Assembly: GCA_018662225.1 (NCBI GenBank)
Contig: JABJGO010000077.1
Span: 1 to 57,802 of the forward strand
Direction of reading: 5' to 3'
Source: Rhodospirillales bacterium
Lineage (GTDB): Bacteria; Pseudomonadota; Alphaproteobacteria; Rhodospirillales; Casp-alpha2
Length of the DNA: 57,802 bases
Made by a program: the position numbers and the translations under genes. Below the pieces are notes generated by a model that made no database searches, was not told the origin of the DNA, and saw only the letters and a program-made list of their open reading frames with translations. Below, piece after piece: positions 22,320 through 33,283 of this stretch (its first letter is position 1; each line of letters begins with the position of its first letter).

Positions 22320-22475
22320 TTGCTTTCCTTGGCGGTTCTGCATTTTTCTATGCCTTTCAGCGTATATTTGCCAGCTACCAAAAGAAAGAGGCTTGCGCTA
22401 TGATGCTAGAGAACCATGTTTTACTTCACATACGTGGGAATTTTACTCCTGTGTATGGCTAGGAAAACCCTGAAT

Positions 22476-24308
22476 ATGCCTGATGACAAGCAATCGCGTT
22501 CACAATCTGATGATGAGGCTGCTGAAGACGTTGCTGCTACGCAACAACGTTTGGCGGAGACCTATCAAGATTTGGCCGAGCGCAGCCAGCGTATTGCCCA
22601 GGCATTTCTGACGCGTCAACCAGACAACGATAGCGTACCGATCCCTGACCCTGTGGTGGTTGGTAAGGCATTCATGGAGTTTGCTCAGGCGGCCATGAGT
22701 GATCCAAACAAGCTCTTGGAAGCCCAGGCCAGTATGTGGCAACAGTATGCAGCTCTTTGGGATACCACTGCCAAGCGGATGGCTGGTGAAGAGGTTGAAC
22801 CGGTTATCGCGCCTGGAGAAAGCGACAAGCGCTTCCGAGATGATGCGTGGAGCGAAGAGATCGTTTTTGATTTCATCAAACAGTCCTACTTGCTGGCCTC
22901 TAACTGGATATATTCATCCATCAGAAATGTGGAAGGCCTGGACCCGAAAGTTGTTGAAAAAGTACAGTTCTATACTCGCCAGTATGTGAATTCGCTGTCA
23001 CCCACAAACTTCGCACCCACAAACCCCAAGGTCATGAAGCAGACCATTGAGTCCAGGGGTGAGAACCTTCTGAACGGGTTGGATAACCTGTTACGAGATA
23101 TGGAGAACGGTGAGGGTGAGTTGAAAATTACAATGACCGACATGGATGCTTTCATCGTTGGTGAGAATGTGGGCGCATCCAAGGGTAAAGTAATTTTTCA
23201 GAACGATCTGATGCAGTTGATCCAGTATGCGCCGTCTACCAAGAAAGTGGCTAAACGCCCCCTATTGATCGTGCCGCCATGGATCAACAAATTCTATATT
23301 CTGGATTTGCAGCCCAAAAATTCGTTGATCAAGTGGGCCGTGGATCAGGGGCATACCGTTTTCATCATATCCTGGGTCAATCCAGATTCCAGCCTGTCGC
23401 ATAAACGGTTCGATGACTATATGCTGGAAGGTCCACTGGCGGCAATGGACGCCATGGAAAAGGCCACCGGCGAACGCGAACTCAATATGATCGGCTATTG
23501 CATTGGCGGCACACTTAGTGCCTGTACCCTGGCCTATATGGCAGAAAAGGGCGATGACCGGGTTAAATCCCTGACCTTTTTTACGACGATGCTCGATTTC
23601 AAAGAGCCTGGCGAACTCGGCGTTTTTGTGGACGAAGAGCAATTGGATAGCCTGGAAGAGCATTTGGAGGGGCATGGTGTGCTGGACGGCAGCAGCATGA
23701 GCCAGGTGTTCTCCATGATGCGTGATAACGATTTGATATGGTCCTTCGTCATCAACAACTATCTCATGGGGCGTGAGCCCATGGCATTCGACTTGTTGTA
23801 CTGGAATTCAGATAACACGCGCATGCCTGCCATGATGCACGCATTCTATTTGCGTGAAATGTATCTGAACAACAAGTTACGAGAGCCGGGTGGTCTGTCG
23901 CTGGATGGCATCGCCATTGATTTGGGCAAGATCAAGCAACCTGTTTATTGGGTCTCTACACTGGATGACCACATTGCGCCGTGGAAAAGTACCTATGCCG
24001 GGACGCAGTTGTTACCGGGCCGCAAGAAATTTGTGCTATCGGGGTCCGGCCATATTGGTGGTGTGGTTAATCCGCCTGCGGCGAAAAAATATGCCTATTG
24101 GACCAACCGTTCATTGCCGGAAGGCCCCGAAGATTGGCTGGCTGGCGCTACTCAGCATGCCGGATCATGGTGGAACGATTGGAACAAGTGGGTCAAACGC
24201 CACAGTGGTGGTGAGGCCCAGGCCCGCGTACCCGGTAAAGGCGGTTTGAAGGCGATCGAAGATGCGCCAGGGTCATATGTGAGAGTCCGTGAGGACACAA
24301 AACCATGA
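22476..24308 (+). CDS. phaC: class I poly(3-hydroxyalkanoate) synthase
   Basis: A 610-residue alpha/beta-hydrolase-fold polymerase that joins (R)-3-hydroxyacyl-CoA units on the surface of storage granules. The lipase-like box 'IGYCIGGTLSA' holds the nucleophile C342; D498 in 'TLDDHIAPWKS' and H526 in 'GSGHIGGVVNPP' complete the triad. The N-terminal domain has the usual PhaC_N features such as 'NPKVMKQTIESRGENLL'. ATG 22476 is used, with AGGAAA 9 bases before it; two earlier in-frame ATGs (22416, 22455) lack such sites. phaA, phaB and phasin genes are absent nearby. The stop overlaps the start of the cyclase gene. Confidence 0.95.
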   Translation: MPDDKQSRSQSDDEAAEDVAATQQRLAETYQDLAERSQRIAQAFLTRQPDNDSVPIPDPVVVGKAFMEFAQAAMSDPNKLLEAQASMWQQYAALWDTTAKRMAGEEVEPVIAPGESDKRFRDDAWSEEIVFDFIKQSYLLASNWIYSSIRNVEGLDPKVVEKVQFYTRQYVNSLSPTNFAPTNPKVMKQTIESRGENLLNGLDNLLRDMENGEGELKITMTDMDAFIVGENVGASKGKVIFQNDLMQLIQYAPSTKKVAKRPLLIVPPWINKFYILDLQPKNSLIKWAVDQGHTVFIISWVNPDSSLSHKRFDDYMLEGPLAAMDAMEKATGERELNMIGYCIGGTLSACTLAYMAEKGDDRVKSLTFFTTMLDFKEPGELGVFVDEEQLDSLEEHLEGHGVLDGSSMSQVFSMMRDNDLIWSFVINNYLMGREPMAFDLLYWNSDNTRMPAMMHAFYLREMYLNNKLREPGGLSLDGIAIDLGKIKQPVYWVSTLDDHIAPWKSTYAGTQLLPGRKKFVLSGSGHIGGVVNPPAAKKYAYWTNRSLPEGPEDWLAGATQHAGSWWNDWNKWVKRHSGGEAQARVPGKGGLKAIEDAPGSYVRVREDTKP

Positions 24309-25963
24309 CAAGCATCATCGCAAGCCAGGCCACCGGCCTGTCCACAACCCCCGACTACTCAGTCACGTTTGAGCCGGTAGGCAAACACGTGGTGGGTAAA
24401 TTGTCCGGCGTTATTATCGTTGATTCGCACAACGCGCTTCAATTGAACGAGACTCGCCACGCGCCCACATATTACTTCCCCAAGGAAGACGTCAATATGG
24501 ATGCGTTGACCAGCACATCGCACCGGACCCACTGCCCGTTCAAAGGTGATGCCAGCTATTGGTCTGTGTCTGCGGGGGGGCGCATGCTTGAGAATATGGC
24601 GTGGGCTTACGAGACCCCTTATCCACAATTACCGGAACTGGAAGGTCGCATTGCCTTCTATACGAACAAGATGGATACGTGGCTGGAAGACGGGGTCCAA
24701 ACATCGCCGACAAGTGAAAGCGCAGACGATAATGTGCAGCCGAACCCGTTGGTACAGTGGGTTATATCTGAGGCTTGGGACGCCCCGACCAGCCGCGAGC
24801 TGACAGCGCGGCTTACTCGTCAACTGAACGAAATGGGCATGGCGATTTCGCGTGTGAATATTGTCATCCAGACGCTGCACCCGCTTATCGTGGCGACGTC
24901 CTATCGCTGGAAACAGGGTGAAGAGGGCGTCACGCGACTTGATGCGCCCTATGCATTGCGAGAGGAAACCGGCTACAACGCCAGCCCGTTCATTCCTATT
25001 TTCCGTGGCATGGGTGGGATCAGGCGCTGGATTGGTTCTGATGATGAAAACGACGATTTCCCGGTGCTGGCAGATTTACGGGCCACCGGGGTGACCGATT
25101 ATGTGGCCATGCCCATGCGGTTTTCTGATGGCCAGATAAACGCGGTAACCCTGGCCACAAATAACGCTGATGGATTTAGCACCGAGCACCTGGGGTGGGT
25201 GCATGAGATTATACCTGCTTTGAGCCGGTACTACGAAGTTCATTCCAAACGCCGCACAAGTAGTACGCTAATGCAAACGTTTCTTGGCCGGTATACCGGC
25301 CAACGAGTGCTGGACGGATTAATCCAGCGGGGCGACGGTGAAGATATTCATGCCGTGATTTGGTTTAGCGACCTGCGGAACTCTACGCCGATTGCTGAGA
25401 AGCTCGGCCGGGTGAGCTTCCTGAACTACCTGAACCGATTTTTTGATTGCATGGCTGGTGCTGTCATCGAAAACGAAGGCGAGGTGTTACGATTTATCGG
25501 TGATGCCGTCATGGCAATTTTTCCCATCACCCATCAGTCAGATGACAATTGCGAGCCTGGTGATGAGCGGATGGGAAGTTGTGCGGCCCGCGATGCTACC
25601 GCGCGTGCCGTCGCAGCCGCCCACGAAGCAACAAGGCGAATTCGTCTGGCGAACGAGCTATGTGAAGTGGAAGGCCTGCCCTGTATGGGGTATGGTATCG
25701 GTATGCATGTGGGGCATGTCACCTATGGCAACATTGGCACGGAAGACCGCCTCGAATTTACGGTTATTGGGTCGGCCGCCAATGAAGCTGCGCGGATTGA
25801 AAGTATGTCCAAAGAACTGGGACGTAACGTGATTGTGTCTCAGGCGTTTGAACAGACGTATGGCGGCGATGATCTGATCTCTCTCGGGGAACATAACTTG
25901 CGCGGCGTTAGTGAGGCGCAAACGATCTATACCCTGCAGCCTGATCCTGAAACAAATTCATAA
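24305..25963 (+). CDS. DUF427 - class III nucleotidyl cyclase fusion protein
   Basis: A 552-residue protein. Residues 20-112 form a DUF427 domain ('GVIIVDSHNALQLNETRHAPTYYF' region, then 'DVNMDALTSTSHRTHCPFKG' and 'AWAYETPYP'). A middle part (about 150-320) looks like a GAF-type sensor. The C-terminal class III cyclase domain (about 345-545) carries metal-binding D356 in 'WFSDLRNST' and D400 in 'RFIGDAVMAIFP', and the transition-state N493/R497 in 'GSAANEAARIES'. The two base-selecting positions are R396 and S490 rather than Lys and Asp, so cAMP versus cGMP cannot be called. The ATGA overlap with phaC implies coupled translation and a link to polymer storage. Confidence 0.85.
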   Translation: MTSIIASQATGLSTTPDYSVTFEPVGKHVVGKLSGVIIVDSHNALQLNETRHAPTYYFPKEDVNMDALTSTSHRTHCPFKGDASYWSVSAGGRMLENMAWAYETPYPQLPELEGRIAFYTNKMDTWLEDGVQTSPTSESADDNVQPNPLVQWVISEAWDAPTSRELTARLTRQLNEMGMAISRVNIVIQTLHPLIVATSYRWKQGEEGVTRLDAPYALREETGYNASPFIPIFRGMGGIRRWIGSDDENDDFPVLADLRATGVTDYVAMPMRFSDGQINAVTLATNNADGFSTEHLGWVHEIIPALSRYYEVHSKRRTSSTLMQTFLGRYTGQRVLDGLIQRGDGEDIHAVIWFSDLRNSTPIAEKLGRVSFLNYLNRFFDCMAGAVIENEGEVLRFIGDAVMAIFPITHQSDDNCEPGDERMGSCAARDATARAVAAAHEATRRIRLANELCEVEGLPCMGYGIGMHVGHVTYGNIGTEDRLEFTVIGSAANEAARIESMSKELGRNVIVSQAFEQTYGGDDLISLGEHNLRGVSEAQTIYTLQPDPETNS

Positions 25964-27892: not shown

Positions 27893-29641
27893 ATGGCTCA
27901 CAGCGCACAGACAGGCTTGGAAGATGCTTCCCGCACGGCGACCAGCGACACGCTGGGCTTGTTGGCGGAAATGGGAAAGTTGTTCGTTTCCACAGGAGAT
28001 CTGGATGCATCGTTACAGTTGGCGGTGGCCCATATCACGGATTATGTGGGCGCGGCTGGTGGTGCTCTGTTTATGCTGGATGAGGCGGGGGAGACCCTCA
28101 CCTGTGAAGCTTGTTACGGGGAAACCGATATTACGGGCATGACGGTTGGTGCATCGCAAGGGGTGGTGGGGGCCTGTGTTCAGGCCGATACGGGCGAGAT
28201 TGTCCGCGATGTAAGCCAGGATGATCGTTTCCACAAGGGCGTGGATGAGAAGACCGGGTACACCACACTTTCCATTCTATGTGCGCCTATGAGCGTTAAG
28301 GATGTGAAAATCGGCGCTATCGAGCTGATCAACAAGCGCGACAACGACGGATTGTTTGAAGAGGCGGATCTGGCACTGTTATCTGCCCTGGCCAGTTCAG
28401 CAGGCCTTGCGATCATTAATGCCCGCATGGCCGAGCAGTTGGTCGAACAGGAGAAGCTTGCCCGTGAACTGGAATTGGCGGCCGAAATCCAGCGCTCGCT
28501 TTTGCCTGTCGGTGATGAAGGCCTACCCATCGCCGGTATCAATATCCCGGCTCGCACTGTATCCGGGGATTTTTTCGATTATTTCCAACTATCGGATGGC
28601 CGCATCGTCTTCAATTTGGGTGATGTATCCGGGAAAGGCATGAATGCCGCCTTGCTAATGGCCAAGACAGCCAGCCTGTTTCGGTGCCTGGGCAAAACCA
28701 TTGACCATCCGGGCCGTTTAATGGCGCGGGTCAACGAAGAGATTTGCGAAACGGCCACACGTGGCATGTTTGTGACCATGGTTGGCGGTATCTATGATCC
28801 AACCACGGGCCGGCTGCGTATTGCCAATGCGGGACACGAGCCACCGTTGCTACAGGGGTCAGACGGCCGTTTTCAGGATTTTCCTGCTGATGCCCCGCCG
28901 TTGGGTATTTCACCACTGGTGGTGCCTGAGAGCGGTTATCCAGTGGAAGATATCGACATGAATGGTGGCGCCTTTTACCTGTTCACCGATGGCCTGACGG
29001 AAGGCTACGTAGAAGGTGAGAGCGAATTAGGTGTGGATGGCGTATTGGCCTTGCTGGAGCATGGTCGAGATGACCTGATCCCAGAACGTATTGCCGCTGT
29101 GATTGGTGCAATTGAGCAGACCGAAGACACCGTCTTGCGGGATGACCTGACCATGTTGGGACTGGATGATTCAGCCGCCTTGCTGGAACGTGCCCGACTG
29201 GCCGAGGAACAGGAAGACGTGCCCCAGGCTGACGTCGTTCTGGCCACGGTATCGGTTCCTGCTGTCGCAAATCGGCTGAAACTGGTGCGGTCAGTTGTGG
29301 GTGACAGTGCCCGGTTGGCCGGTGTTATTGATGCCGCTATCCACGATGTGGTGTTAGCCGTTGATGAGGCCTGCCAGAATGTCATTCGGTATGCCTATAA
29401 AGGTTGCGACGATGGCGTGATCGAAGTTTCTATTGCCCATTGTGGCGATAATTTGGTGTTTGAGATTTCCGACGATGCAGATACGGTTGACCCAGACACC
29501 ATTAAGCCCCGTGACCTTGATGACATACGGCCGGGTGGGTTGGGTACGCACCTAATTCAGGAAATCATGGATCAGGTGGAATTTTTACCACGAAGCGCAG
29601 AAGGTGGTAATATCCTGAGAATGATAAAGAAGATTGGCTGA
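27893..29641 (+). CDS. GAF - PP2C phosphatase - HATPase kinase fusion (RsbU/RsbW-like)
   Basis: A 582-residue regulator joining both enzymes of a partner switch. GAF sensor (about 20-178), a short coiled linker ending in 'ELAAEIQRSLLP', SpoIIE/RsbU-type PP2C (about 215-425) with metal-binding Asp in 'VSGDFFDY', 'GDVSGKG', 'FTDGLTE' and 'RDDLT', and an HATPase_c_2 domain of anti-sigma-kinase type (about 455-582) with N box 'AVDEACQNVIRYAY' and 'PGGLGTHLIQE'. The phosphatase should remove, and the kinase add, a phosphate on the STAS protein encoded next. The gene starts an apparent operon with STAS, MlaE, MlaF, MlaD and a lipoprotein. No sigma factor is nearby. Confidence 0.88.
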   Translation: MAHSAQTGLEDASRTATSDTLGLLAEMGKLFVSTGDLDASLQLAVAHITDYVGAAGGALFMLDEAGETLTCEACYGETDITGMTVGASQGVVGACVQADTGEIVRDVSQDDRFHKGVDEKTGYTTLSILCAPMSVKDVKIGAIELINKRDNDGLFEEADLALLSALASSAGLAIINARMAEQLVEQEKLARELELAAEIQRSLLPVGDEGLPIAGINIPARTVSGDFFDYFQLSDGRIVFNLGDVSGKGMNAALLMAKTASLFRCLGKTIDHPGRLMARVNEEICETATRGMFVTMVGGIYDPTTGRLRIANAGHEPPLLQGSDGRFQDFPADAPPLGISPLVVPESGYPVEDIDMNGGAFYLFTDGLTEGYVEGESELGVDGVLALLEHGRDDLIPERIAAVIGAIEQTEDTVLRDDLTMLGLDDSAALLERARLAEEQEDVPQADVVLATVSVPAVANRLKLVRSVVGDSARLAGVIDAAIHDVVLAVDEACQNVIRYAYKGCDDGVIEVSIAHCGDNLVFEISDDADTVDPDTIKPRDLDDIRPGGLGTHLIQEIMDQVEFLPRSAEGGNILRMIKKIG

Positions 29642-29675
29642 CACAAGCCGACAATACGAAAAAGGAAGGCTGGAG

Positions 29676-30008
29676 ATGGAGTATTCAAAACGAGAAGAAA
29701 GTGGTGCGCAGGTCGTATCGTTTAAAGGCGATATCGATTTGCAAAGCTCGCCAGAGGTTCGCAAAGTCTTGATCAGCGCCGTGGACGAAGGTTCAACAGT
29801 TCTGGTGGATCTGTCGGGCGTCGATTACATCGACTCTTCCGGTGTGGCATCCATGGTGGAAAGTTTCCAGAACGCACGAAAGAAAAATCAGGAATACGTC
29901 CTGGTATCCGTGTCTGACGCTGCCATGCGCGTGTTGCAGCTTGCCCGCCTTGATAAAGTCTTCACGATCAGTGATAGCGTCGAAGATGCGCTCAAAGCGA
30001 CCGAATGA
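29676..30008 (+). CDS. STAS domain protein (RsbV/MlaB-like)
   Basis: A 110-residue single STAS domain. The phosphorylation loop reads V-D-Y-I-D53-S54-S55-G56; S54 is equivalent to the Ser phosphorylated in SpoIIAA and RsbV. 'GDIDLQSSPEVRKVL' is the usual N-terminal strand-helix unit. In Mla systems the STAS protein MlaB binds the ATPase MlaF; here the same slot is filled by a protein with a classical phosphorylatable loop. ATG 29676 with a GGAG just before it is the start; TTG 29634 overlaps the upstream stop. It stands 34 bases after the phosphatase/kinase gene and 21 before mlaE. Confidence 0.9.
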   Translation: MEYSKREESGAQVVSFKGDIDLQSSPEVRKVLISAVDEGSTVLVDLSGVDYIDSSGVASMVESFQNARKKNQEYVLVSVSDAAMRVLQLARLDKVFTISDSVEDALKATE

Positions 30009-30029
30009 AGTGTTTAGCAGGATAAATCA

Positions 30030-30845
30030 TTGAGCGAAACACCACCCAATCTATTCGTCCGAACCGCCGACAACGTGGGCCGCAAGACGCTTACAGGGAT
30101 CGAAGAGATCGGTAACGGCGCGACTATTATTGCCCAGAGCGTCTTCTGGCTATTTATGGGGCCGCGTTATGGGCAACCTGTTCGGGCAGGTTCCGTCGTG
30201 GTGCAGATGATGGAAGCGGGCATTTTTGCTATTCCTATTCTGGTTTTGCTGAACGCCGCCATCGGCGTCATGCTGGCAATTCAAAGCATCTATATGCTCA
30301 AGATTTTTGGCGCGGAAGCCCGTGTCACTGATGGCATCGGCTTTGTTATCGTGCGGGAATTCGGCCCCCTGATTACCGGTATTCTGATCGCAGGCCGCAC
30401 CGGGTCATCCCTGGCAGCACGGTTAGGCACCATGCGGATCAATCAGGAGTTGGACGCTCTTCATGTCATGGGAATCAACCCCGTGCGCTTCCTTGTGGTG
30501 CCCGCGTTGGTGGCAATGGTAATCATGGTGCCGTTGCTCACCTTTTTGTGCGATGTGGCTAGTTTGCTGGCTGCGGGTTTATACGTGCAGATCACCCTGG
30601 ATATTTCCCTTGCAGCCTTTTTTAATCAGGTCGTGGATGTGCTGAGCGTCGGCGACCTGATGCACGGTCTGGGCAAAAGCGTGTTGTTCGGTATCCTTAT
30701 TTGCATCATCGGCGTGGTTAATGGTGCGTCAGTCACCGGTGGCGCAGAAGGTGTTGGCAAGGTCACCACACGAGCCGTGGTTCAGGCTATTTCGGCTATC
30801 GTACTGACGGATATGTTGATTGTTTACATCGCGACGATTAGCTGA
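30030..30845 (+). CDS. mlaE: MlaE family ABC permease
   Basis: A 271-residue inner-membrane permease of the MlaE family with five to six membrane helices. 'GAEARVTDGIGFVIVREFGPLITGILIAGR' region and 'GSSLAARLGTMRINQELDAL' are highly characteristic. With MlaF and MlaD it forms a lipid (phospholipid) transporter between the membranes. The start is a TTG at 30030 with AGGA about 8 bases before it; no closer ATG is available. Confidence 0.93.
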   Translation: MSETPPNLFVRTADNVGRKTLTGIEEIGNGATIIAQSVFWLFMGPRYGQPVRAGSVVVQMMEAGIFAIPILVLLNAAIGVMLAIQSIYMLKIFGAEARVTDGIGFVIVREFGPLITGILIAGRTGSSLAARLGTMRINQELDALHVMGINPVRFLVVPALVAMVIMVPLLTFLCDVASLLAAGLYVQITLDISLAAFFNQVVDVLSVGDLMHGLGKSVLFGILICIIGVVNGASVTGGAEGVGKVTTRAVVQAISAIVLTDMLIVYIATIS

Positions 30846-30855
30846 GGGTTGAGAT

Positions 30856-31677
30856 ATGGCAGATGAAATCAAAAGCGTTATCGAGGTTCGTGATCTCGTG
30901 ACCCATTATGGCCCTCGGCAAATTCTGAACGGTATTACCATGGAAGTGCGTGAAGGCGAGATCATGGTGATTATGGGCGGGTCCGGGTCTGGTAAATCTA
31001 CGTTGCTCAGGCATTTGATGGCCTTGGAAGAAAAGACGTCAGGGACCATGACAATCCTGGGCCAAAACATTGATGAACTGAACATGCGCGAGATGTTTGA
31101 TCTGCGCAAAAAACTGGGTGTGGCGTTTCAGAGTGGCGCGTTGTTCAGTTCCATGACGGTAGGCGAGAACGTTATGCTGCCGTTGTTCGAACATACCAAG
31201 CTTGACCGCATGACTATGGATATTATGACCCGAATGAAGCTCGAGGTCGTGGAATTGGGCGAGTTTGAGAACCTGATGCCGGCTGAGCTTTCGGGCGGCA
31301 TGATCAAACGGGCAGCCTTTGCGCGGGCGTGCGTTATGGATCCCAAAATCCTGTTCTGTGACGAGCCGTCAGCGGGGCTTGATCCTGCGGTAGCGTCGGC
31401 ACTGGATGATTTGATCCTGCGACTGCGCGATGCGCTGGGCATGAGCATTGTCGTTGTGACCCATGAGCTGGATAGCGCCTTTAAGATTGCTGACCGCATG
31501 ACGGTGCTTGATCGGGGGGATATTTTGTTTATCGGCACACCTGAAGAAATTCGAAATTCGCCAAATGAGCGTATTCAGAAAATTCTCAACCGGGAACCGG
31601 ATAGTGACGATGTGGATATTGATGTTTACCTTAGGCGCCTTACGGGCGAAGACATGTACGGGGGCGCTGAGCTATGA
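30856..31677 (+). CDS. mlaF: MlaF family ABC ATPase
   Basis: A 273-residue ATPase: Walker A 'GGSGSGKST', Q loop 'VAFQSGALFSSMTV', signature 'LSGGMIKRAAFARA', Walker B 'ILFCDEPSAGLDP' and switch His in 'VVVTHELDSAF'. The Q-loop sequence with 'GALFSSMTVGENV' is specific for the MlaF/Ttg2A group. It powers MlaE and is the expected contact of the STAS protein. The stop overlaps the mlaD start (ATGA). Confidence 0.94.
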   Translation: MADEIKSVIEVRDLVTHYGPRQILNGITMEVREGEIMVIMGGSGSGKSTLLRHLMALEEKTSGTMTILGQNIDELNMREMFDLRKKLGVAFQSGALFSSMTVGENVMLPLFEHTKLDRMTMDIMTRMKLEVVELGEFENLMPAELSGGMIKRAAFARACVMDPKILFCDEPSAGLDPAVASALDDLILRLRDALGMSIVVVTHELDSAFKIADRMTVLDRGDILFIGTPEEIRNSPNERIQKILNREPDSDDVDIDVYLRRLTGEDMYGGAEL

Positions 31678-32669
31678 GAAGTAACAAGATCAATTATCTG
31701 GTTGTTGGCACCTTTGTGCTTTTAACCATTGGCGGACTGGTCGTGTCGATCGCCTGGTTGCTGGGGCAGACCGGACCGGTCGAGTCGTATCATGCCATTT
31801 ACCGCAATGTGACCGGGGTGAAATTTGGATCTCAGGTGTTCTATGAAGGGTACCCAATCGGCCAGATAACCGAGGTCGTGCCGGAAGAACGTGACGGGCG
31901 CATGGTGTTTCGTATTGATTTTGACGTGACCCAGGGTTGGCGTATCCCCAATGATTCTGTGGCCGAAGTGGGGGCTTCCAGTTTGCTGTCCGCGATCAGC
32001 CTGAACATATCGGCGGGACAGTCACAAACCGCCTTGAAACCGGGCGACCCAATCACAGCCATTGAGGCATCAAACCTGTTTGATGTGGTTGAGGGCGTCG
32101 CCGGAAAATTTGCCAATATGGCCGAAGAAGACATCAAGCCACTGTTAGCCAACCTGACCCGAGGCGGTGGCGTTCTAGCCGATTTGCTTGAAAATGATGG
32201 CGCTGCGATATTCGAACAGGCCCGTACATTGATTGAAATACTGTCGACAAGGGCCCCGGTGATTGTTGATCAGTTCGGGTTGTTTGCCGGTGATTTGGAA
32301 GATCTGGGCGAAAGTCTCAGCCGCTCCAGCGCGCAGATCAACGCGTTGGTCACAGACGAAAACCGCGAGATGCTGGAAGGCGTTCTGGCCAATCTGGATG
32401 AGGCCTCCGCCACGCTGGACAACCTGATGGTTGAAGGCAACATCATGATTGGTACGGCCAATGAGATTATGGAAAACAATGGCGAGGATGTAGAACAGGC
32501 CGTTAGCGACCTGCAACACACCGCCGCCACGCTGGCCCGCCATGTGGATTCCATTAATTTCCATCTGGATGGAACCGCCCGTAACATGTACGAATTCAGT
32601 CGTCAGATCAGGCAAAACCCCGGCTTGCTGCTGGGCGGAACGCCACCTGTCGATAACGCGTCAGAGTGA
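31674..32669 (+). CDS. mlaD: MlaD/MCE domain protein
   Basis: A 331-residue protein with one N-terminal membrane anchor (about 8-30) and a periplasmic MCE domain ('YRNVTGVKFGSQVFYEGYPIG' region to 'GDPITAIEA'). A long C-terminal tail (about 140-320) is rich in predicted helix with heptad-like Leu/Val, as in longer MCE proteins that build tunnels or needles. It binds lipid on the outer face of the inner membrane. The ATGA overlap with mlaF indicates coupled translation. Confidence 0.9.
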   Translation: MRSNKINYLVVGTFVLLTIGGLVVSIAWLLGQTGPVESYHAIYRNVTGVKFGSQVFYEGYPIGQITEVVPEERDGRMVFRIDFDVTQGWRIPNDSVAEVGASSLLSAISLNISAGQSQTALKPGDPITAIEASNLFDVVEGVAGKFANMAEEDIKPLLANLTRGGGVLADLLENDGAAIFEQARTLIEILSTRAPVIVDQFGLFAGDLEDLGESLSRSSAQINALVTDENREMLEGVLANLDEASATLDNLMVEGNIMIGTANEIMENNGEDVEQAVSDLQHTAATLARHVDSINFHLDGTARNMYEFSRQIRQNPGLLLGGTPPVDNASE

Positions 32670-32680
32670 GGATTACTGCC

Positions 32681-33283
32681 ATGACGATGATATCCATTCG
32701 CACAATCCTCCTGAACCTGACACTTGTGGTGCTGGTATCGGCCTGTACGGCACAACCGCCCGCGACCCAGGACCGATACTACCGGATCAGTGTGGGCCAG
32801 CCTTCAGCAGCCGGTACAATCTTGTCGGGAACGTTGGTGATGGAGCCATTTGTGGCCGAAGGTTTGGTCGCGGGGCGCGCCATCATCCACGTGGAAAGCG
32901 AGGACTCTACCAGTTTGCAGGAATACAATTATGATTTCTGGGCTGAACCACCGGGTATTATGATCCGTGATGAACTGATGGCCTACTTACGCGATGCGAA
33001 TGTGGCGGGCGCCATCGTCACGCCGGAGATGCGGGCGCAGGCAGACTATATTTTGTCTGGGCATGTGAGCCGCCTTGAAATGGTTCGCGGCCCAGAACCA
33101 AAGGCCTATGTTGAACTGGATATAGCCGTGACCAAAGACAGCAACGGTAAGGTCGTGATGGTGAAAAGCTACGGTCTCTCTGTCGCCGCCAGCGATGGCA
33201 CGGTCAAAGCCGGTGTCGCCGCCGCCAATCAAGGCATCGAGGCAATCTTTGAGCAGTTCCTGAAGGATTTGAATGGCGGTTGA
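32681..33283 (+). CDS. ABC-type transport auxiliary lipoprotein (PqiC/DUF330-like)
   Basis: About 200 residues with a lipoprotein signal whose lipobox is V-S-A-C near residue 22, so it is probably anchored in a membrane facing the periplasm. 'DRYYRISVGQPS' at the start of the mature part and 'ADYILSGHVSRLEM' match the ABC_trans_aux family that accompanies Pqi and some MCE systems. It takes the place of MlaA/MlaC, which are absent here. ATG 32681 follows a GAGG; the GTG 32666 overlapping mlaD is the alternative. Confidence 0.85.
   Translation: MTMISIRTILLNLTLVVLVSACTAQPPATQDRYYRISVGQPSAAGTILSGTLVMEPFVAEGLVAGRAIIHVESEDSTSLQEYNYDFWAEPPGIMIRDELMAYLRDANVAGAIVTPEMRAQADYILSGHVSRLEMVRGPEPKAYVELDIAVTKDSNGKVVMVKSYGLSVAASDGTVKAGVAAANQGIEAIFEQFLKDLNGG

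Follow-up and report, generated by a model that had tools for sequence, protein, structure and literature searches.

A putative partner-switching module encoded with an Mpc-like lipid transporter in a Rhodospirillales bacterium

Partner switching of the RsbU-RsbV-RsbW and SpoIIE-SpoIIAA-SpoIIAB types employs a PP2C phosphatase, a STAS substrate with a serine following an aspartate and an RsbW-like kinase. The same three components are encoded next to genes for lipid transport in a Rhodospirillales bacterium, raising the question of whether such a switch could act on a transporter instead of a sigma factor. The window analysed was a stretch of 57,802 nucleotides (contig JABJGO010000077.1 of assembly GCA_018662225.1). 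The original prediction placed a GAF-PP2C-HATPase fusion and a STAS protein directly before mlaE-mlaF-mlaD and a lipoprotein gene; reading frames, Pfam domains and gene spacing all agreed with this, confirming that the arrangement is real and that the predicted frames and coordinates were right. Six genes, all on the + strand, were present between positions 27893 and 33283 (Table 1). Gaps of 34, 21 and 10 bases separated, in order, the fusion, STAS, mlaE and mlaF genes, and overlaps of 4 bases were found at both the mlaF/mlaD and the mlaD/lipoprotein junctions. The lipoprotein, which is presumably PqiC/MpcA-like, had the lipobox LVSAC when read by eye. Scans for promoter-like and terminator-like sites detected 4 and 9, respectively, versus 5.3 (standard deviation, 2.1) and 6.5 (standard deviation, 2.5) in shuffled sequences. 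As the promoter scan found no + strand site ahead of the fusion gene, these scans were uninformative about the ends of the operon.

Table 1. Genes of the operon and the basis for their assignment
Feature	Position	Strand	Basis
582-aa fusion of a GAF domain, a PP2C/SpoIIE phosphatase and an RsbW-like serine kinase (HATPase_c_2)	27893..29641	+	Pfam above cut-off; structure match; catalytic residues in relatives
Free RsbV-like STAS protein, 110 aa, switch residue Ser54 (DSSG)	29676..30008	+	Pfam STAS, 72.6 bits; TIGR00377
MlaE/MpcE-type permease, 271 aa, TTG start	30030..30845	+	Pfam MlaE, residues 57-265, 217 bits
MlaF-type ATPase, E. coli-like C-terminal extension DVYLRRLTG	30856..31677	+	Pfam ABC_tran above cut-off; solved-structure relatives; E. 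coli Y261/L265
MlaD/MpcD-type MCE protein, 331 aa	31674..32669	+	Pfam MlaD, 37.9 bits (cut-off 25.1)
ABC_trans_aux-family lipoprotein, GTG start	32666..33283	+	Pfam PF03886, 41.1 bits (cut-off 26)

The fusion protein comprised a GAF domain (residues 36-174), a SpoIIE/PP2C domain (234-423) and a HATPase_c_2 domain (456-579), all scoring above Pfam cut-offs. The best solved structure for the kinase domain was RsbW (E value of 1.6e-10), and the histidine-kinase-type model, HATPase_c, scored below its cut-off on this domain. The N-box Glu and Asn, the G1 Asp and the GGxG motif were retained in 86/86 kinases of relatives, while the G1 Gly of RsbW was replaced by Ala in 82 of them. For the phosphatase, the Asp of GDF and the Asp of GDVSG were present in all 92 relatives, the second Asp of the DFFD motif being variable (81 Asp, 6 Glu and 5 Asn). 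The operon thus encodes a SpoIIE-type PP2C phosphatase, an RsbW-like kinase with its catalytic residues and a STAS protein with a phosphorylatable Ser, as in the Rsb and SpoII systems. It differs from those systems in that kinase and phosphatase form a single frame (64/81 loci), no SigB-like sigma factor was found in the genome and the presumed output is an ABC transporter.

The start listed for the STAS gene, TTG at 29634, overlaps the fusion gene, and ATG at 29676 is the likely start. This start gives a protein of 110 residues with a D53-S54-S55-G56 loop, and hence the predicted D-S-S-G motif and Ser54 numbering hold. The protein scored above the cut-off of TIGR00377 but reached only 27 bits, against a cut-off of 90, with the MlaB model mlaB_1 (NF033618). 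Its match to E. coli MlaB had an E value of 0.31 and its nearest solved structures were anti-sigma antagonists. By family model, therefore, the protein classes as RsbV-like and not as MlaB. In E. coli, MlaB Q22 contacts MlaF beside T52 (PMC7784689); the equivalent position was Leu in 85 of 92 free STAS proteins, so that this contact residue is lacking as well.

The switch position was Ser in 92/92 free STAS proteins, whereas the STAS domains fused to MpcE had mostly Thr (30 Thr, 3 Ser and 2 Ala; n = 35). These counts, together with the unchanged state of most of the active-site residues checked in the sets examined, argue against the STAS protein being solely a structural subunit of the transporter, with a kinase and phosphatase that act elsewhere or are vestigial. 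One genome (G210) fits such a role: a search of the whole genome at 1e-10 gave no fusion match, with the STAS gene and the transporter both present. Its STAS protein nevertheless keeps the Ser. We consider a purely structural role very improbable.

The original prediction described an Mla/MCE operon. The MlaE, MlaF, MlaD and lipoprotein assignments stood, but the transporter appears, on gene content, to be Mpc-like: MlaE, MlaF, a long MCE protein (about 331 residues) and a lipoprotein are encoded in one operon, and no mlaC gene was found within the six genes. In the available text on Brucella abortus Mpc (MpcEFDA; PMC12436622), a four-gene operon likewise encodes an MlaE-like protein, an MlaF-like protein, an MCE protein of 331 residues (MpcD) and a lipoprotein. 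The STAS domain of that system is fused to MpcE, and neither a kinase nor a phosphatase acting on it is mentioned in the same text. Here, the 271-residue MlaE had no N-terminal STAS fusion, its Pfam domain starting at residue 57, and the STAS protein is free, carries a Ser and is preceded by two enzymes in one chain. E. coli MlaFEDB resembles the present system in its free STAS protein and, according to the portions available of PMC7367683, PMC7784689 and PMC5016091, in the C-terminal tail of MlaF, in K128, Y261 and L265, and in a switch position, which is T52 of MlaB. The same portions name no kinase for that Thr, while the Ser54 described here has a linked kinase. The E. coli system also differs in gene order and in the presence of mlaC, and its MlaB is distinguished from the present STAS protein by the MlaB model and by Q22.

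Among the best solved relatives of MlaF were two proteins named only as ABC transporter ATP-binding proteins (6.4e-52 and 6.7e-52), with the structures of Pseudomonas aeruginosa MlaF and E. coli MlaF matching at 9.2e-52 and 6.7e-47, respectively. Tail and contact positions were compared across 78 free-STAS loci with a complete MlaF. The tail pattern Y[LMI]xx[LIVM] was present in 76 of the 78, while even the looser Y-x3-[LIVM] was found in only 1/35 MpcF proteins. Of two positions that contact MlaB in E. coli, T114 was kept in 68/78 free-STAS loci versus 15/32 MpcF proteins; K128 was kept in 78/78 but also in 31/32 MpcF proteins and is not, therefore, specific. In the loci sampled, a tail of the kind that grips MlaB thus appears to go together with a free STAS protein. 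Sequence comparison gives a divided answer to the suggestion that this STAS protein serves as MlaB: the MlaF tail and main contact residues are kept, but Q22 is not and the family model points to RsbV. We propose that the free STAS protein does the job of MlaB for this MlaF.

The arrangement was no accident of this one locus. Among 69 sources with all seven parts, the window included, 68 shared the strand and the order GAF-PP2C, kinase, STAS, mlaE, mlaF, mlaD and lipoprotein, the opposite of a fusion gene never linked to Mla genes; in the exception (L171), the switch genes were convergent to the transporter. Across 317 genomes of the order, 185 had both the fusion (E of ≤1e-60) and an Mpc-type MlaE (E of ≤1e-45), 11 had the fusion only, 9 had MlaE only and 112 had neither, the genome sets having been transcribed by hand. 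A contig scan of close relatives gave 7 loci and a plasmid search gave 2 partial matches. The operon was also present in a genome from another class (L172). Furthermore, a Desulfobacula locus (L015) had the order mlaF-mlaE-mlaD-STAS(DSSG)-mlaC with adjoining divergent GAF-PP2C and RsbW-like genes. The arrangement is, from this conservation across the order, more than a chance association.

The switch could still control a remote regulator, such as a sigma/anti-sigma pair, a cyclase or a response regulator, with the transporter genes merely cotranscribed. The RsbV-like character of the STAS protein and the absence of Q22 are in keeping with this. The genome of the window, which is 95.7% complete, was searched for other partners. 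STAS matches were restricted to this protein and two frames of 552 and 594 residues; no other short STAS protein was found, STAS_2 adding none, which leaves no other MlaB candidate for this MlaF. With HATPase_c_2, one RsbW-like domain scored 97.4 bits and the next 27.8, and hence no second strong kinase of this type was detected. Sigma70_r3 had a single match, in a 705-residue frame, and no SigB/SigF-like sigma factor was found with this model, although a divergent one could escape it. On these three results, a sigma factor as output was rejected. Remote control of any of these kinds also contends with the conserved linkage, seen across the order as well as in another class, and with the association of MlaF tail and free STAS protein.

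Genomes that break the linkage bear on the same question. Seven (G115, G134, G135, G141, G245, G427 and G289) had the kinase/phosphatase and STAS genes but no intact transporter, with remnants of mlaE and the lipoprotein gene in G289. In two others (G085 and G132), the kinase was kept with no adjacent GAF-PP2C. The switch genes of G134, G135 and G141 had dN/dS values of 0.10 to 0.22, indicative of purifying selection and hence of a switch that still does something. Lipid transport as the output in place of a sigma factor is thus favoured by the conserved linkage and the lack of another partner in the genome, but is in tension with these seven genomes. The three under selection also speak for a remote regulator, which we judge improbable overall. 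The STAS protein may, rather, have a second target besides the Mpc transporter, the only one left after transporter loss; the retained switch in the six genomes other than G289 is consistent with this. No candidate second target was found, and the genes downstream of the switch in G134, G141, G115 and G427, RNA methyltransferase-like and CcmA-like frames named by eye, look unrelated. Such a dual output is possible but tentative, and it extends the gated-transporter model without conflicting with it.

Taking the evidence together, we consider it probable that the locus encodes an Mpc-type lipid ABC transporter of the inner membrane (MlaE, MlaF, MlaD and lipoprotein) with a separate, phosphorylatable RsbV-like STAS subunit, gated by the linked kinase and phosphatase. 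We infer the STAS-MlaF binding, the phosphotransfer, the on/off direction and the signal as follows. Dephosphorylated STAS protein would dock on MlaF where MlaB sits in E. coli, allowing the transporter to assemble and work. The RsbW-like kinase domain would bind the same face of the STAS protein and phosphorylate Ser54; the phosphorylated form would bind neither kinase nor MlaF, leaving MlaF without a partner, and transport would stop. On sensing a ligand or state through the GAF domain, the PP2C domain of the same chain would remove the phosphate and transport would resume. Phosphorylation of the MlaB switch residue has been hypothesized (PMC5016091) and was described elsewhere as an intriguing idea that lacked experimental support (PMC7367683). 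As described in these papers, the T52E mimic lowered MlaB-MlaF association, while T52A abolished activity but kept binding, a poor fit to a simple switch. Mla or Mpc genes accompanied by a kinase and a phosphatase were described in none of the titles and abstract openings found, a set largely outside the subscription literature and no proof of absence, and a term search of PMC8256260 gave no mention of Mla.

We lean, by a narrower margin of confidence, towards a form of partner switching with a membrane transporter as its output, in which a dedicated serine kinase and phosphatase would decide whether a STAS subunit binds its ATPase, widespread in one alphaproteobacterial order and possibly of separate origin in a desulfobacterium, where its genes adjoin a classical Mla operon that includes mlaC. 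Since a single operon brings together the kinase and phosphatase, their presumed substrate and the transporter, the open question of MlaB phosphorylation becomes directly testable. If the model is true, post-translational on/off control would be added to intermembrane lipid transport.

Open reading frame calls bore out the original prediction of six genes between 27893 and 33283; all are on the plus strand, with intergenic gaps of 34, 21 and 10 bases followed by two 4-base overlaps. Pfam detected GAF, SpoIIE-type PP2C and HATPase_c_2 domains in the first protein, termed the fusion, and, in order, STAS, MlaE, ABC ATPase, MlaD and ABC auxiliary lipoprotein families in the remaining five. The most likely STAS start codon is ATG 29676; counted from it, the D-S-S-G loop noticed previously was confirmed as D53-S54-S55-G56. 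The solved structure nearest to the kinase domain was RsbW (E 1.6e-10) and those nearest to STAS were anti-sigma factor antagonists (TM1442, E 2.9e-15; RsbV, 1.3e-8), the matches to MlaB structures being marginal (P. aeruginosa, E 0.11, species taken from the structure-match listing for MlaF; E. coli, E 0.31). In NCBIfam, STAS exceeded the cut-off for the anti-anti-sigma superfamily and scored 27 bits against a cut-off of 90 for mlaB_1. For MlaF, the solved relatives were headed by two chains labelled only as ABC transporter ATP-binding protein, ahead of P. aeruginosa MlaF and, after it, E. coli MlaF. As described in PMC12436622, the Brucella abortus lipid transporter Mpc shares the layout of the window operon in its MlaD and ABC_trans_aux lipoprotein (the window MlaD has 331 aa, and its lipoprotein is of the ABC_trans_aux family) but has a permease with a fused STAS domain, whereas the window STAS is a separate gene.

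Coordinates of the operon genes and of other features mentioned in the text
Feature	Source	Position	Length (aa)
PHA synthase gene phaC	window	22416-24308	
DUF427-cyclase protein	window	24305-25963	552
GAF-PP2C-kinase fusion	window	27893-29641	582
STAS	window	29676-30008	110
mlaE	window	30030-30845	
mlaF	window	30856-31677	
mlaD	window	31674-32669	331
lipoprotein	window	32666-33283	
STAS pair	L163	1291-2000	
STAS pair	L164	6336-7039	
HDOD-like/SpoIIE-type phosphatase	L015	11593-13308	

Among 317 genomes of the order, the fusion was matched at 1e-20 in 222 and MlaE in 298. At thresholds meant to separate orthologues (fusion, ≤1e-60; MlaE, ≤1e-45; genome sets transcribed by hand), 185 genomes had both, 11 the fusion only, 9 MlaE only and 112 neither (Fisher p 9e-61, ignoring the relatedness of genomes). 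Both occurred together in 26 of the 31 families, by a reading of two match tables by eye. The fusion was matched in 36/385 genomes of the class sample (1e-30) and 17/398 of the phylum sample (1e-40), many weaker matches in these samples spanning the PP2C part alone. A total of 107 regions were fetched (99 around fusion or MlaE matches, one extra flank, L105, and seven second MlaE copies or repeat places), many of which stop at contig ends, and were mapped with profiles together with the window and a Desulfobacula locus (L015). All seven parts were present in 69 sources, including the window, and in 68 of these the order GAF-PP2C, kinase, STAS, mlaE, mlaF, mlaD, lipoprotein was kept on one strand. 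This is the opposite of the refuting pattern named in the original prediction, a fusion gene never linked to Mla genes. The exception was L171, with the partner switch convergent to the transporter; a locus from another class, L172, had the full operon. Kinase and phosphatase shared one frame in 64 of the 81 sources holding both and were separate in 17, indicating a two-gene module of which the window fusion is one version. Loci L163 and L164 carried a tandem pair of STAS genes between the kinase and mlaE, with YLDSSGIE in the kinase-side and YIDSSGVA in the mlaE-side copy.

Among the fusion-only genomes, three (G004, G036, G064) had matches at or near a contig end, and G222 had the GAF-PP2C part alone; in G178 the fusion gene was broken, no STAS was found and an Mpc-type MlaE was absent. 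G289 retained the switch and STAS, and of the transporter just remnants of mlaE and the lipoprotein gene. The switch and STAS were kept without the transporter in G115, G134, G135, G141 and G245 (the G245 fusion has one TGA, its two parts being in separate frames), and likewise in G427 from outside the order. In G134, G135 and G141, our own Nei-Gojobori script gave dN/dS values of 0.10-0.22 (phosphatase part), 0.14-0.15 (kinase) and 0.12-0.16 (STAS); STAS values were 0.28-0.51 in three transporter-bearing genomes with the same genus label. These low values indicate that the switch is still in use there without the transporter, and of all results this purifying selection argues most strongly against a single output. 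Partner-switch genes were retained after transporter loss in L136-L138 and L141, being under purifying selection in L136-L138; STAS may serve a second target.

Eight of the nine MlaE-only genomes were inspected, G163 being left out. Contig ends cut the locus in four (G039, G040, G155, G301), and in G144 the contig begins within the phosphatase part. G085 and G132 had the kinase without an adjacent GAF-PP2C, and unlinked PP2C-like matches exist. G210 lacked both at the locus, and a search of its genome with the fusion at 1e-10 gave no match. Outside the order, G470 had a GAF-PP2C part adjoined by none of the operon's other genes, G463 a match of PP2C type neighbouring unrelated ABC frames, and the G323 stretch stops at a contig end.

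Other possible partners were sought in the window's own assembly (3.5 Mb, 103 contigs, 95.7% complete). Of 15 matches to RsbW-like domains, the operon kinase scored 97.4 bits and the next 27.8; the operon kinase is the sole strong RsbW-like domain of this genome. Besides the operon protein, STAS was matched in two longer frames (552 and 594 aa) that, by length only, are of SulP transporter size, and a STAS_2 search detected no further STAS protein. A second MlaE lies on a 3.4-kb contig with mlaE and mlaF, beside which no STAS was found, and MpcE with its fused STAS gave no match at 1e-60. Sigma factor region 3 had one match, though a divergent sigma factor could escape this model, in a 705-aa frame whose size fits RpoD.

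According to PMC7367683 and PMC7784689, Tyr261, Leu265 and Leu266 in the C-terminal extension of E. coli MlaF insert at the adjacent interface between MlaF and MlaB, and MlaF K128 and T114 are contacted by MlaB T52 and Q22. The tail pattern Y[LMI]xx[LIVM] was present in 76/78 complete MlaF proteins from free-STAS loci (all but L162 and L171); the looser Y-x3-[LIVM] occurred in 1/35 MpcF, the corresponding ATPases of fused-STAS operons, within a common YFHG core. Aligned to E. coli, position 261 was Tyr and 265 Leu in 76/78 each, but Leu266 was not kept, being mostly Thr (54 of 78). K128 was kept in 78/78 but likewise in 31/32 MpcF, and T114 in 68/78 versus 15/32. The free STAS had Val, Ile or Leu at the MlaB L55, L59 and L90 positions in 92, 91 and 91 of 92, and Leu at the Q22 position in 85/92.

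All 92 free STAS proteins (>40 bits), including those of transporter-less loci and G210, had Ser at the switch position; the profile was built from such sequences and would miss strongly divergent members. The residue is Thr52 in E. coli MlaB. In STAS fused to MpcE (35 loci: the 30 best-scoring of 107 matching genomes plus five from fetched MlaE regions; three residues assigned by eye where the pattern missed) it was Thr in 30, Ser in 3 and Ala in 2, or 27, 3 and 2 without three second copies of the same gene (n = 32). The N-box Glu and Asn, G1 Asp and GGxG glycines were invariant in 86/86 kinases, with the G1 Gly of RsbW replaced by Ala in 82. In the phosphatase, the Asp residues of GDF and GDVSG (92/92), TDG (89/89 covering) and RDD (88/88 covering) were invariant, and the second Asp of DFFD was Asp in 81, Glu in 6 and Asn in 5 (n = 92).

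In E. coli, MlaB T52 is close to the middle of the interface with MlaF, and association is lowered by T52E (PMC7367683); the equivalent Ser of SpoIIAA is phosphorylated by its partner SpoIIAB, breaking their binding (PMC5016091). The kinase and MlaF should, on these grounds, compete for one face of STAS. Phosphorylation of STAS would hence deprive MlaF of its partner, and transport would resume once the GAF-gated phosphatase acts. This direction fits E. coli, where MlaF needs MlaB to join the complex, but T52A is bound yet inactive, and the residue may thus also be important in its own right for activity (PMC7367683 and PMC5016091).

In the Desulfobacula genome (L015), the operon reads mlaF-mlaE-mlaD-STAS-mlaC; mlaF was identified with our own profile and the other genes were confirmed by Pfam. 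Its STAS carries DSSG and sits in place of MlaB, the MlaF tail also ends with a correctly spaced Tyr and Ile, and a GAF-PP2C gene and an RsbW-like kinase gene are divergent from the mla operon. That this arrangement arose separately is a guess made from the arrangement, not from a tree. Convergent to the kinase gene is an HDOD-like (by eye) and SpoIIE-type phosphatase, possibly a second phosphatase for the same STAS. Three loci of one family elsewhere in the phylum (L173-L175) had a GAF-PP2C gene, upstream of a STAS gene (VDSSA) in L173, and no match to an RsbW-like gene in these stretches.

In the window, phaC precedes the fusion gene, and it is also close upstream in several relatives, including L051-L055, L057, L059 and L065; a link to carbon storage is possible. 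The end of phaC overlaps by 4 bases a gene for a protein with DUF427 (NTP_transf_9) and adenylate/guanylate cyclase domains.

No description of a partner switch coupled with a lipid transporter was found in the literature searched. The architecture of the coupled operon is firm, and the proposed switching mechanism is well supported by sequence. The partner switch coupled to a lipid transporter is conserved and combines two known kinds of system.
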